Positions 27,010 through 29,963 of a stretch of DNA of 35,581 nt are shown here, in pieces. The notes beneath the pieces are model-generated. The model ran no database searches, had not been told where the DNA came from, and saw nothing but the letters and a program-made list of their open reading frames with translations. The stretch lies in contig JAFQIB010000045.1 in NCBI GenBank assembly GCA_017397765.1, forward strand, positions 1 to 35,581, written 5' to 3'. The translations under genes were made by a program, and so were the position numbers. The DNA comes from Clostridia bacterium. Lineage in GTDB: Bacteria > Bacillota > Clostridia > Christensenellales > Aristaeellaceae. Numbering within the stretch: the first letter of the stretch is position 1; the number at the start of each line of letters is the position of its first letter.

Positions 27010-27027
27010 GAGCCCGAGGTGATTCCC

Positions 27028-27885
27028 ATGCTCCACGCGGACAACGAGCGTCTGCTGACGCTCATCAGCGAATATCTGACCTTTACCCCGGAAGCCATCC
27101 GCCCCGAAGACGTGACCAGGCTGGCGGCGGACTGCGGCATTTCCATGAACGAGGCTTATCTGGCGCTGCTGGCGGCACACTGCGGCCTGGATACCGGTAA
27201 GCCCGAGGACGCCCGGCTCTACCGGAGCTACTTCCCGCAAATGGTGCACCGGCTCGATCCCCTGCCCTTTGCGCAGGACGCCTATATGCAAACCATTCAT
27301 CCTGACAGCGGCAGGCAGGGCAGCATCGATCTGGTCTATGAGACCGTACAGCCCATGGAGCTCTTTGTCGCGGATGATTTCCTGGTGGACGCACAGGGGC
27401 GGGTTCTTCCCCAGCTGGGCTGGTTTGACCAGGCCTTCTCCTTCCCCGCCATCCGCGAGGAGGGGCGCGTCTGGATGACCGTCACGCCCAATGAGATCAA
27501 CACCATCCAGCCCGCCGTCCGGAAAAGCCGGGGCAAGGTGCTGACCTACGGCCTGGGGTTGGGGTATTACGCCTTCCACTGCCTGCTGAAAAAGGAGGTG
27601 GAGAGCGTCACCGTGGTGGAGAAGAATCCGGCGGTCATCGATGTGTTCCGTCGTCGGCTGCTGCCCTTCTTCCCCCGGCAGGATGCGCTGCGCATCATCC
27701 GGTCAGACGCCTTTGACTATGCAGAAAAGGTCATGCCGGGAGAGGGGTACGACACGGTGTTCACCGATCTCTGGCACGACGTGGCGGACGGACTCCCCCT
27801 GTACAGGCGGATGAAGGCGCTGGAATGCCCCGGGCCGGAGTTCCTCTACTGGATCGAAAAGACGCTGCAGGTCTACATGGCCTGA
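27028..27885 (+). CDS. SAM-dependent methyltransferase-like protein (spermidine synthase-type fold)
   Basis: This 285-residue protein starts at an ATG six bases after GAGGTG. Residues about 165-230 hold a Rossmann methyltransferase core: GKVLTYGLGLGYYAFHCLL (motif I), VESVTVVEKNPAVIDVFRRRLLP (acidic end of beta2), ALRIIRSDAFDYAEKV, and YDTVFTDLWHDVADGLPLY. This order is like spermidine synthase and related class I methyltransferases, but the protein lacks clear polyamine-site residues that I can name, so the substrate stays open. The first 150 residues are not recognised. Its last 13 bases overlap the end of the convergent Noc-like gene, and no plus-strand terminator appears until 28531-28551. 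Confidence 0.72.
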   Translation: MLHADNERLLTLISEYLTFTPEAIRPEDVTRLAADCGISMNEAYLALLAAHCGLDTGKPEDARLYRSYFPQMVHRLDPLPFAQDAYMQTIHPDSGRQGSIDLVYETVQPMELFVADDFLVDAQGRVLPQLGWFDQAFSFPAIREEGRVWMTVTPNEINTIQPAVRKSRGKVLTYGLGLGYYAFHCLLKKEVESVTVVEKNPAVIDVFRRRLLPFFPRQDALRIIRSDAFDYAEKVMPGEGYDTVFTDLWHDVADGLPLYRRMKALECPGPEFLYWIEKTLQVYMA

Positions 27886-28445
27886 TAGCGCTCCGTCCTG
27901 CGCCTGCGGGCCGGATAGGCAATCGTCAGCTCCTGCATGCTGCCGGTTTTGCGCTCCGTGAAGGTGGCGCGAACGCCGGCAGCATTCATTTGTCCTGCAA
28001 TATCCCGCACGGCGTTGCGATAGAGCCGGATATCCCGGATGACGGCAATCACCCGGGGCTGCTGCGGGGATGGTTGACAGCGCGGGCTGCGTCCGGCGGC
28101 AGCCACCAGCAGCGCAGCGTCCCGGATGCAAAGCCGCTCCTGCACGATCCTTTGGGCCACCCGCCGCCGCAGGTCGGGATCAGGCAGCGCCAGCAGGCAG
28201 CGTGCGATCTGCTCCGGTGCATTCTCTGCCCGCAGATAGGCCCGAAGTCCTTCCTCCAGCCCCATCAGCTGCAGCCGATCCATTGCCTGCGCCGGATTCA
28301 GCCCGCACAGGGCTGCCGCCTCTGCCCGGGAACGCCCCTCTCCCAGCAGGCGGTTCAGCAGCTCCGCCGAGTCAAAATAGTGCATTTGGGCAATCGGGTT
28401 TCGCTTCCGGACCGGCAGGAACCGTGGCAGCTCAGTGTACAGCAT
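27873..28445 (-). CDS. Noc/ParB-like protein lacking the N-terminal CTPase domain
   Basis: This 190-residue protein has only the middle and C-terminal parts of Noc/Spo0J. The DNA-binding region (about residues 38-115) reads SRAEAAALCGLNPAQAMDRLQLMGL...APEQIARCLLALPDPDLRRRVAQRIVQERLCIRDAALLV, the helix-turn-helix layout of ParB proteins. The C-terminus, RDIRLYRNAVRDIAGQMNAAGVRATFTERKTGSMQELTIAYP, matches the Noc dimer domain (RDTRIAMNTIRQSLSMVEDSGV in B. subtilis). The ParB/CTPase domain with its GERRWRA-type box is absent: only about 36 residues precede the HTH. AAAGGAG nine bases before the ATG and a promoter at 28479-28507 argue against a simple truncation by mis-annotation. It follows rsmG, the position of noc in B. 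subtilis. Confidence 0.75.
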   Translation of the reverse strand: MLYTELPRFLPVRKRNPIAQMHYFDSAELLNRLLGEGRSRAEAAALCGLNPAQAMDRLQLMGLEEGLRAYLRAENAPEQIARCLLALPDPDLRRRVAQRIVQERLCIRDAALLVAAAGRSPRCQPSPQQPRVIAVIRDIRLYRNAVRDIAGQMNAAGVRATFTERKTGSMQELTIAYPARRRRTERYQAM

Positions 28446-28478
28446 GGCAGATTTCTCCTTTGAATGGCAGCTGTCTTA

Positions 28479-28507
28479 ACTATATGACAATCCCCCGCGC
28501 ACCGCAA
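28479..28507 (-). promoter_or_regulatory. Promoter of the Noc-like gene
   Basis: On the minus strand TTGCGG (28502-28507), 17 bases and TATAGT (28479-28484) fit a sigma-A promoter, giving a leader of about 25 bases. Confidence 0.6.
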
Positions 28508-28530
28508 GCAGAATCGTTCGACACGTTCTG

Positions 28531-28551
28531 CCCCGTGCACGGGGGATTTTT
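28531..28551 (+). terminator. Plus-strand terminator behind the Noc-like gene
   Basis: CCCCG-TGCA-CGGGG (28531-28544) is followed on the plus strand by GATTTTT. No plus-strand gene ends here; the nearest is the methyltransferase-like gene ending at 27885. On the minus strand there is no U-tract, so it is not the rsmG terminator. Confidence 0.55.
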
Positions 28552-28573
28552 CTGTGCTTTCAGGAAGCTATTG

Positions 28574-29308
28574 TCATTTCTTATCGTTTCCGCCCAGGGG
28601 GGACTTGCCGGGCGTGCCGGCTTTTCGGGGATACTGTCGAGCGGTTTTTGCAGCTTTGGCAATGGGCAGCAGCATATGCTGCCAGTCCCGCCCGGGGAAG
28701 GTGATGCTGATCGGCTCCTGCACCTTGCCGCCCAGCAGATACGCCGCCTTCCGGCCCTGGGGCAGCTCCTCCATCAGCGCCGGGCCCTTCCAGCACACCG
28801 CCTTGCCGCCCACCTTTACATAGGGCAGCAGGTATTCCGACAGCACCGCCAGCGAGGCCACCGCCCGGGCCACCGCTACATCATACTTCTCCCGGTGGTT
28901 GGGGAACTGAGCGCCGTCCTCTGCACGGGCATGCACCAGGGTCACATTGCGCACCCCCAGATCATCGATCACTGCCTGGAGGAAGTTGAGGCGCTTCTGC
29001 TGGGCGTCCATGAGCGTCACGCGAAGGTTCGGGCAGGCCAGGGCCAGCGGCAGACCGGGAAAACCCGCGCCGGTGCCCACGTCGATCAGCGAGCCGTTCT
29101 CCGGGATCAGCCCCGGCACCGCCAGCGCGATCAGGCTGTCCACATAATGCTTGTCGATCATCTCCGCTTCCTCGATCACAGCGGTCAGATCCATGCGGGT
29201 ATTCCAGTCCAGCAGCAGCTCATGATAGCGCAGCAGCTTCGCCGGCAGCTCCGCATCATGGGCGATGCCGCATTCCTGCAAGCGGGCGGAAAGCATTTCA
29301 GTCGTCAT
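28574..29308 (-). CDS. rsmG: 16S rRNA (guanine527-N7)-methyltransferase
   Basis: This 244-residue enzyme (GidB) methylates G527 of 16S rRNA. Conserved blocks are LLRYHELLLDWNTRMDLTAV, KHYVDSLIAL, LIDVGTGAGFPGLPLAL (SAM site), VTLMDAQQKRLNFLQAV and AVARAVASLAVLSEYLLPYVKVGGKAVCWKG. The start at 29308 follows GGAG at seven bases; a longer frame to 29380 overlaps the upstream gene. Loss of RsmG gives low-level streptomycin resistance in several bacteria. It is the last gene of the 31404-32531 operon, four bases after the DUF218 gene. Unlike most Firmicutes, mnmG is not next to it, but a noc-like gene follows as in B. subtilis. Confidence 0.95.
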   Translation of the reverse strand: MTTEMLSARLQECGIAHDAELPAKLLRYHELLLDWNTRMDLTAVIEEAEMIDKHYVDSLIALAVPGLIPENGSLIDVGTGAGFPGLPLALACPNLRVTLMDAQQKRLNFLQAVIDDLGVRNVTLVHARAEDGAQFPNHREKYDVAVARAVASLAVLSEYLLPYVKVGGKAVCWKGPALMEELPQGRKAAYLLGGKVQEPISITFPGRDWQHMLLPIAKAAKTARQYPRKAGTPGKSPLGGNDKK

Positions 29309-29312
29309 ATCG

Positions 29313-29963
29313 TCACTCCAAAGGCAGGTGCAGATACTTCTGCATCCAGTATTTGATCCATGCCAGGCCCTCACGGCCATGGTTCTTGAGCCAGAAATTC
29401 AATCCCAGCTTGGTGGGCGAGCCCAGCCCGCTCGCGTCCAACCCTGCGTCCTCCGCGATGGCCATCGCCCGGGGCAGATGGTAATCGCTGGTGACCACCA
29501 GCACATGATCGACCCCGCGTCCCTCCAGGAGCTTGACCGCATTGGCAATATTCTGCCGGGTGTTGAAGCTCCTGTCGTCCATGAGGATACTGTCTGCCGC
29601 CACGCCCTGACGCTGCAGCTCGTCCCGCATGACATGCGCTTCCGGCGCGGGCTCATTGGCCCCCTGCGCGCCGCACACGACGATCAGGCATTCCCGTTCC
29701 TTCCAGGCCTTCGCCGCTGCGTCAATGCGCCACTGCAGCTGCAGGGACGGTTCGCCGTCCGGCTTCACCTGCGCCCCCAGGACAATGATTGCGTCATATT
29801 CGCCCACCGGCGGCACATGTTTCTCCCGGTAACAGAGCATCGCCACCACTCCCAGATAAAAGAGTATGCCCAGCAGCATCAGCGTCAGGCCGAGCTTCAA
29901 AAGCTTTTTCAACAAACCTTTGGGCTGTTTCACGTCACTTCGATTCCTTTCGTTCAGACCCAT
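29313..29963 (-). CDS. DUF218 (YdcF/SanA-like) membrane-anchored protein, copy 1
   Basis: This 216-residue protein has an N-terminal transmembrane helix (KLLKLGLTLMLLGILFYLGVVAML, about residues 20-43) and an extracytoplasmic DUF218 domain. The domain shows YDAIIVLGAQVKPDGEPSLQLQWRIDAA, CLIVVCGAQGANEPAPEAHVMRDEL, DDRSFNTRQNIANAVKLL and VLVVTSDYHLPRAMAIAEDAGL. SanA and related proteins affect the cell envelope barrier and vancomycin sensitivity; a general enzymatic role is not known. The gene overlaps the end of radC by 10 bases and stands four bases from rsmG, so it is part of one operon. The domain is related to the gene at 30785-31414. Confidence 0.88.
   Translation of the reverse strand: MGLNERNRSDVKQPKGLLKKLLKLGLTLMLLGILFYLGVVAMLCYREKHVPPVGEYDAIIVLGAQVKPDGEPSLQLQWRIDAAAKAWKERECLIVVCGAQGANEPAPEAHVMRDELQRQGVAADSILMDDRSFNTRQNIANAVKLLEGRGVDHVLVVTSDYHLPRAMAIAEDAGLDASGLGSPTKLGLNFWLKNHGREGLAWIKYWMQKYLHLPLE

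Follow-up and report, generated by a model that had tools for sequence, protein, structure and literature searches.

A conserved Noc-derived protein without a ParB/CTPase domain, encoded next to a putative Spo0A site in a genus of Clostridia

What can a Noc protein still do once its ParB/CTPase domain is gone, and is a gene for such a protein a working form, a relic or an artefact of assembly? The question is raised by a gene in a 35,581-nucleotide stretch of a Clostridia draft genome of the family Aristaeellaceae (GCA_017397765.1, contig JAFQIB010000045.1), hereafter the window, whose relevant features are listed in Table 1. An initial annotation, made from the letters alone, had described a 190-residue ORF in the noc position after rsmG, with a ParB-type helix-turn-helix (HTH), a Noc-like C-terminus and no CTPase domain, and profile and structure searches bear out each of these parts. 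Pfam HTH_ParB matches residues 21–115 (E 1.9e-8), and ParB_N is absent in the Pfam search of the 190 residues. The rsmG stop lies 128 bp from the ATG of the short gene, and rsmG adjoins noc at all 16 loci found in the genus.

The Noc profile TIGR04285 aligns residues 40–176 with positions 117–252 of its 255 positions (E 2.1e-13), that is, with its second half only. Since the Spo0J protein of the same genome reaches only position 201, the match up to position 252 marks a Noc-type C-terminus, a domain assigned here by sequence profile. The score of 50.2 bits is below the family cut-off of 315, which separates poorly in these genomes, because the full-length Noc of a genus member (G131) also misses it at 164.7 bits while the Spo0J of the window genome reaches 218.1. 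The HTH block is predicted with pLDDT >90 (AF2), and structure comparison confirms the claimed similarity to Noc: residues 16–123 match the DNA-binding domains of Noc and ParB. We regard the structure of the short Noc as well supported. Searched as a single protein with phmmer against PDB sequences, it gave nothing significant (best E 0.11, a ParB), and scanning contigs with this one protein as query confirmed no relative.

In common with Noc of the Bacillus subtilis type (TIGR04285), the short protein has its position after rsmG, the ParB-type HTH fold and the Noc-type C-terminal domain, whereas it differs in having no CTPase domain, 2 of 9 DNA-contact residues (see below) and about 50 bits against the cut-off of 315. 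Where Noc has an amphipathic membrane helix, none is predicted for the short N-terminal tail, though at low confidence: residues 1–20 have pLDDT <60 (in blocks of ten), and the first AF2 helix does not begin before residue 17. With Spo0J/ParB, the protein shares the HTH fold family but neither the CTPase domain nor the C-terminal domain.

Table 1. Features of the short noc locus (positions in the window)
Feature	Positions	Strand	Evidence
Short gene derived from noc, 190 aa, ParB/CTPase domain absent	27873..28445	-	ATG start, profile searches
rsmG (gidB) ORF, upstream, marks the noc position; true start may be internal	28574..29380	-	PF02527 and TIGR00138 above cut-off
Residues 1–20, N-terminal tail (MLY..), in place of the tail and ParB/CTPase domain of full-length relatives	28386..28445	-	
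Residues 21–121, ParB/Noc-type HTH, recognition helix altered (GLNPAQAMDRLQL)	28083..28385	-	Pfam HTH_ParB, AF2
Residues 130–190, Noc-type C-terminal (presumed dimerisation) domain, basic RRRR tail	27876..28058	-	TIGR04285
RBS AAAGGAG	28455..28461	-	AAAGGAG in 7/8 clade members, GAAGGAG in G153
Sigma-A-like promoter TTGCGG-N17-TATAGT (putative)	28479..28507	-	pattern conserved in clade
TGTCGAACGATTC, conserved element holding Spo0A box TGNCGAA	28511..28523	-	motif search, conservation
Strong hairpin, Spo0A-box-like element in tip	28489..28548	-	-42.1 kcal/mol, z -6.8

An open frame extends only 10 codons ahead of the ATG of short noc, and the N-terminal domains of three relatives, compared with the window, gave a best E of only 0.34, so no remnant was recovered. 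Across the genus, the ParB_N family PF02195 matches noc loci at 60 down to 27 bits, with none listed for the five short forms described below, and Spo0J at 115–123 bits in 18/18 genomes. The domain is absent by deletion, and a frameshift is not the cause. A free-standing CTPase domain acting in trans was also considered and rejected for the window genome, where PF02195 matches in a single place, the Spo0J gene on contig C88. Extra ParB_N matches away from noc, besides Spo0J, occur in three other genomes with short forms (G151, G155 and G159), and several genomes with full-length noc likewise carry further ParB_N proteins away from noc.

In a family-wide sample, a match was present in 81 of 150 genomes, and within the genus in 16 of 18, the window genome counted. 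The other two genus members, G150 and G154 (73% and 77% complete), yielded neither noc nor rsmG in a search run without a positive control. Five of the 16 genus copies are short and every one is an intact ORF: those of the window genome (190 aa), of G156, G151 and G159 (182, 183 and 188 aa) and of G155 (216 aa), which retains the last helix before the HTH and has a different breakpoint from the rest. Start codons were chosen by hand for the genus and, for outgroups, by an automatic rule based on the RBS; the counts depend on these choices. The five come from separate assemblies; G156, G151, G159 and G155 share identical upstream sequence with the MAG records L050, L049, L051 and L053, two of which carry titles naming the rectum of sheep and of roe deer. 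The window, one contig of a 158-contig draft, is a setting in which a sequencing, assembly or frameshift artefact might conceal an N-terminal domain. We give this explanation practically no credence, given the mere 128 bp between the rsmG stop and the ATG without remnant, the like architecture in G156, G151 and G159 and the other breakpoint in G155. The short Noc is a conserved form, not an assembly error, and the survey of rsmG neighbourhoods suggested by the initial annotation shows that it recurs.

The full-length relatives indicate how such a form could have arisen. The GERR motif reads GN.. in all 11 full-length genus members, with Asn at the position of E87 of B. subtilis Noc, and 10 of the 11 have lost the Asn of box III (ENxQR; N121 in B. 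subtilis), which G089 keeps; four of the 11 carry Ser there. Both motifs are intact in eight of the other family proteins compared, and in G033, from a different genus, neither CTP box of Noc is intact. Since full-length members of the genus already carry broken GERR/ENxQR motifs, decay of the CTP site appears to have preceded the deletion. The four full-length members with Ser are natural counterparts of CTP-defective laboratory mutants (N121S, R89A). In B. subtilis, Noc N121S is reported to bind CTP more weakly and to lose hydrolysis, spreading, liposome binding and rescue (PMC8429893), and such mutants fail to rescue B. subtilis (PMC8429893), whereas the window protein has no such domain at all and is nevertheless conserved. 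The M-x-Y start is common to the short forms and to full-length Noc of G153, G157 and G148; therefore, an internal in-frame deletion sparing the start region fits best. The protein alignment (A1) comprises 13 of the 16 genus proteins (without G064, G089 and G158) and two family outgroups. In other genera, the Noc proteins of G065, G025 and G090 (L012, L013 and L014) and of G106 (L020) have lost box III too, perhaps independently, and those of G065 and G025 retain 7 of 9 contact residues despite this loss.

The DNA-reading residues have changed as well. Nine contact residues (Q147, G155, K156, Q158, N163, K164, K169, R186 and R189 in B. subtilis numbering) were taken from PMC7383237 and mapped by alignment; the tenth contact position given there (S172 in Caulobacter, Gly in B. 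subtilis) was left out, and L014 (G090), nearly identical to L012, was omitted from this count and from the trees. The window protein keeps 2 of the 9 and genus members 0–4, and the eight family proteins in which GERR and ENxQR are intact retain 6–8. The recognition helix common to the five short forms reads GL[TSN]..Q...R[LM].L. The full-length proteins of G157 and G148 keep none of the nine, and specific DNA binding is possibly gone in this clade for that reason; these proteins (L040–L043) have a ParB domain with broken CTP motifs and an inserted linker before a well-kept C-terminal domain.

Because most mapped contact residues are replaced, binding of the short Noc to NBS (the Noc-binding site) is unlikely, and it may have gained a new site specificity or lost specificity altogether; our searches revealed no site to which the short protein would bind. 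Within one mismatch, the window genome has 3 NBS sites (reversed control 0), seven sampled genus members have 0–3 and other genera 0–23. A classical Noc-NBS system may exist elsewhere in the family, for example in G020, G047 and G039, whose genomes hold 23, 21 and 12 such sites with none in the reversed control. The link between contact residues and sites is loose, since G143, G125, G011, G065 and G025 have 6–7 contact residues and zero NBS sites. A conserved 13-mer upstream of noc (see below) was rejected as a chromosome-wide Noc site, with 0–2 exact copies per genome and 0–3 matches to a 19-mer at three mismatches.

The interval between rsmG and noc carries a conserved sequence. The element TGNCGAACGATTC is exact in 14 of 16 genus copies, with one change in each of G148 and G024, and its columns (N position excluded) are 0.98 identical between the two halves of the genus, compared with 0.47 for the other columns; the one further block that is comparably kept (up to 0.89) is where the rsmG gene ends. 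Across the 18 genomes, exact copies beyond noc number three (G152, G131 and G156), all upstream of spoIIA. Exactly 3 bp after the element begins the pattern TTGNNN-N17-TANNNT, found at the same offset in all eight members of one clade, which holds all short forms, and in none of the other eight genus members. The initial annotation had claimed a good RBS and promoter for this start. The RBS is confirmed, and for the putative promoter the -10 (TATAGT) is good and the -35 (TTGCGG) weak; a generic sigma-70 scan did not call it, as might be expected if an activator were required.

The element also lies within a hairpin. In G131 (L003), a T-run follows a hairpin of this kind, giving a terminator-like arrangement, and the palindrome CCCCGTGCACGGGG (28531–28544), in one arm of the hairpin in the window, is called terminator-like on the + strand, with 0.6 occurrences expected in shuffles. 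This palindrome was initially considered as a Noc site and was set aside as part of the rsmG-noc hairpin. An Rfam search of 27800–29400 gave zero matches. In another genus, G106 has TGACGAACGATTC between rsmG and its noc.

The motif TGNCGAA is the published Spo0A box (PMC7643835), and in G152, G131 and G156 the exact element lies about 110 bp upstream of spoIIAA-spoIIAB-sigF. In G152, NCBIfam places SpoIIAB above its cut-off and SpoIIAA 1.15 bits under its own; sigF was called from gene order and sequence reading, and in G156 only spoIIAA and spoIIAB are readable. Of 18 spoIIA loci scanned, L123 (G150) gave no match and stands outside the following count: of 17 spoIIA promoters in the genus (L106–L122), 13 have a forward TGNCGAA at -105 to -114, a nearly constant distance, and the remaining four have none at the usual place. 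In 11 of the 13, the window genome among them, the box reads TGTCGAACG. Spo0A_C matches in 18/18 genomes, at 137–142 bits in 14 (141.2 in the window genome) and at only 88–108 bits at best in G131, G024, G150 and G159, the last a fragment. SpoIIAA-family matches were likewise found in 18/18, with a true SpoIIAA-like score in 17. Because of the Spo0A box, the spoIIA copies and the presence of Spo0A_C in all 18 genomes, we read the conserved rsmG-noc element as a putative Spo0A site. The box is a single 7-mer within the conserved 13-mer and the hairpin, and the additional CGATTC is not accounted for by Spo0A. From their genes, these bacteria presumably sporulate. MinC_C had no match in the 18 genus genomes, while a control search was positive in 6 of 14 genomes, and division-site selection in this genus may differ from that of Bacillus. 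In the literature searched by title and abstract opening, we noticed no report that noc is under Spo0A control.

Could the short gene nevertheless be a fading relic, Noc having become dispensable in the genus and its gene eroding piece by piece into a pseudogene that serves no new role of its own? Losses that came in steps, of CTP motifs, of DNA-contact residues and last of the domain, would suit such a course, as would noc branches that are longer than rsmG branches on the trees. Selection estimates, rough as Nei-Gojobori values at high dS, cut both ways. Among the four core short forms, dN/dS is 0.28–0.44 and dS 0.56–0.97 in 5 of 6 pairs; outside this group, the pairs G157–G148 and G153–G155 have higher overall dN/dS, 0.54 and 0.53. 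For the core four, mean dN/dS is 0.45 for the HTH, which agrees with decay, and 0.21 for the C-terminal domain, which argues against it; in four full-length members the two values are 0.24 and 0.25. Constraint on the short forms is thus strongest in the C-terminal domain, which ends in the RRRR tail, and weaker in the HTH. Because the frames are intact at dS 0.56–0.97, we argue that short noc is not a pseudogene. Retention of the promoter, RBS and upstream element, and presence in all but two incomplete genomes of the genus, speak against a relic in the same way, and we consider this reading unlikely, without dismissing it.

Two further readings give the protein a definite partner. It might be an autoregulator, its dimer binding an imperfect inverted repeat, GAATCGT-GNCGA-ACGATTC, that precedes the gene. 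That repeat lies just upstream of the promoter, is found throughout the genus whatever the length of Noc and has few copies per genome. Its right half is conserved, however, while its left half drifts, the same 13-mer also stands before spoIIA, a Spo0A target, in three genomes, and the element is kept despite the changed recognition helix, with one base change in G148, whose Noc has 0 of 9 contacts; these points make autoregulation a decidedly weak contender. Modulation of full-length Spo0J/ParB, through shared dimers or competition for sites, would draw on the ParB-family HTH and on a suitable partner in the same genome, where Spo0J looks normal (GERR and ENIQR kept, gene next to ParA) and three parS-like sites, one of them exact and two a single mismatch away, lie within 4 kb on one contig, with none in the reversed control. 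The C-terminal domain is of the Noc type and is absent from Spo0J, however, and the residues that read parS/NBS are mostly replaced, so that we think this quite improbable.

The reading that we prefer is that of a CTP-independent, non-spreading, dimeric DNA-associated protein, probably controlled by Spo0A and loosely RefZ-like, and taken as a whole it has in our judgement an even chance of being right. Points against it are the lack of a binding site in our searches, the weaker constraint on the HTH, the low Spo0A_C scores in four genomes, the four spoIIA promoters with no box at the usual place, the unexplained CGATTC and the weak -35. The initial annotation had likewise proposed a Noc descendant without CTP-gated spreading; the profile and the relatives uphold the descent and the domain loss, the Noc-type C-terminus tells against its idea of a ParB regulator, and the non-spreading role on DNA is one that we infer. 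From a noc ancestor, the lineage would have ceased to maintain the CTP site (GERR to GN.., ENxQR lost), with change in the NBS-reading residues. The upstream region holds a Spo0A box, which in one clade adjoins a sigma-A-like promoter, and in that clade an internal in-frame deletion would then have taken the whole ParB/CTPase domain, sparing the region around the start, the HTH fold and the C-terminal domain.

The product would presumably dimerise through the C-terminal domain, presenting two HTH domains and basic tails. It should be incapable of CTP binding, clamp closure, sliding and a CTP-gated membrane switch, there being no ParB domain to form a CTP-closed clamp. It would most probably stay in place on DNA, either recognising new sites or held chiefly by contacts of the C-terminal domain and basic tail, produced under Spo0A control around sporulation entry, and might tune septum or chromosome placement as RefZ does in Bacillus. 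RefZ of B. subtilis is a DNA-binding protein of early sporulation, switched on first by sigma-H and later by Spo0A~P, and has been proposed to act in developmental nucleoid occlusion (PMC6657595). It serves here as a working analogy only, being a TetR-family protein unrelated to the short Noc, whose function we infer. A wider scenario, in which a lineage showing no MinC remade Noc, a CTP-gated sliding clamp, as a developmental nucleoid factor that works without CTP and under Spo0A control, losing the CTP site and the NBS code first and the ParB/CTPase domain afterwards while keeping the C-terminal domain, is tentative and more apt to fail than to stand.

If that wider scenario holds, the short Noc would be a natural, selected separation of the DNA/dimer function of Noc from its CTP switch. 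A conserved Noc free of the CTP domain, beside a normal-looking Spo0J/parS system, offers a setting made by nature in which to learn what the HTH and C-terminal domains achieve by themselves, and a Spo0A box on noc would tie nucleoid occlusion to the sporulation decision. We found no report of a ParB lacking its N-terminal domain, and the papers retrieved on Noc, Clostridia and evolution mention no such short form in title or abstract opening. A 2025 survey of the ParB-CTPase fold, as presented, starts from that fold (PMC12704722) and therefore should not see the short Noc.

How often the domain was lost depends on the tree consulted. All five short forms group on the Noc C-terminal tree (86/77) and on a four-protein tree (67/56), and the core four group with 87/81 on rsmG and 96/100 on the four proteins. 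On the rsmG tree, the five are together in 0% of 200 bootstrap trees, and the 216-aa form of G155 pairs with the full-length G153 (94/88). The domain was thus deleted once, or possibly twice. At its 3' end, the short noc (- strand) overlaps by 13 bp (27873–27885) with the 3' end of a + strand ORF at 27019–27885, which gave weak spermidine-synthase matches.
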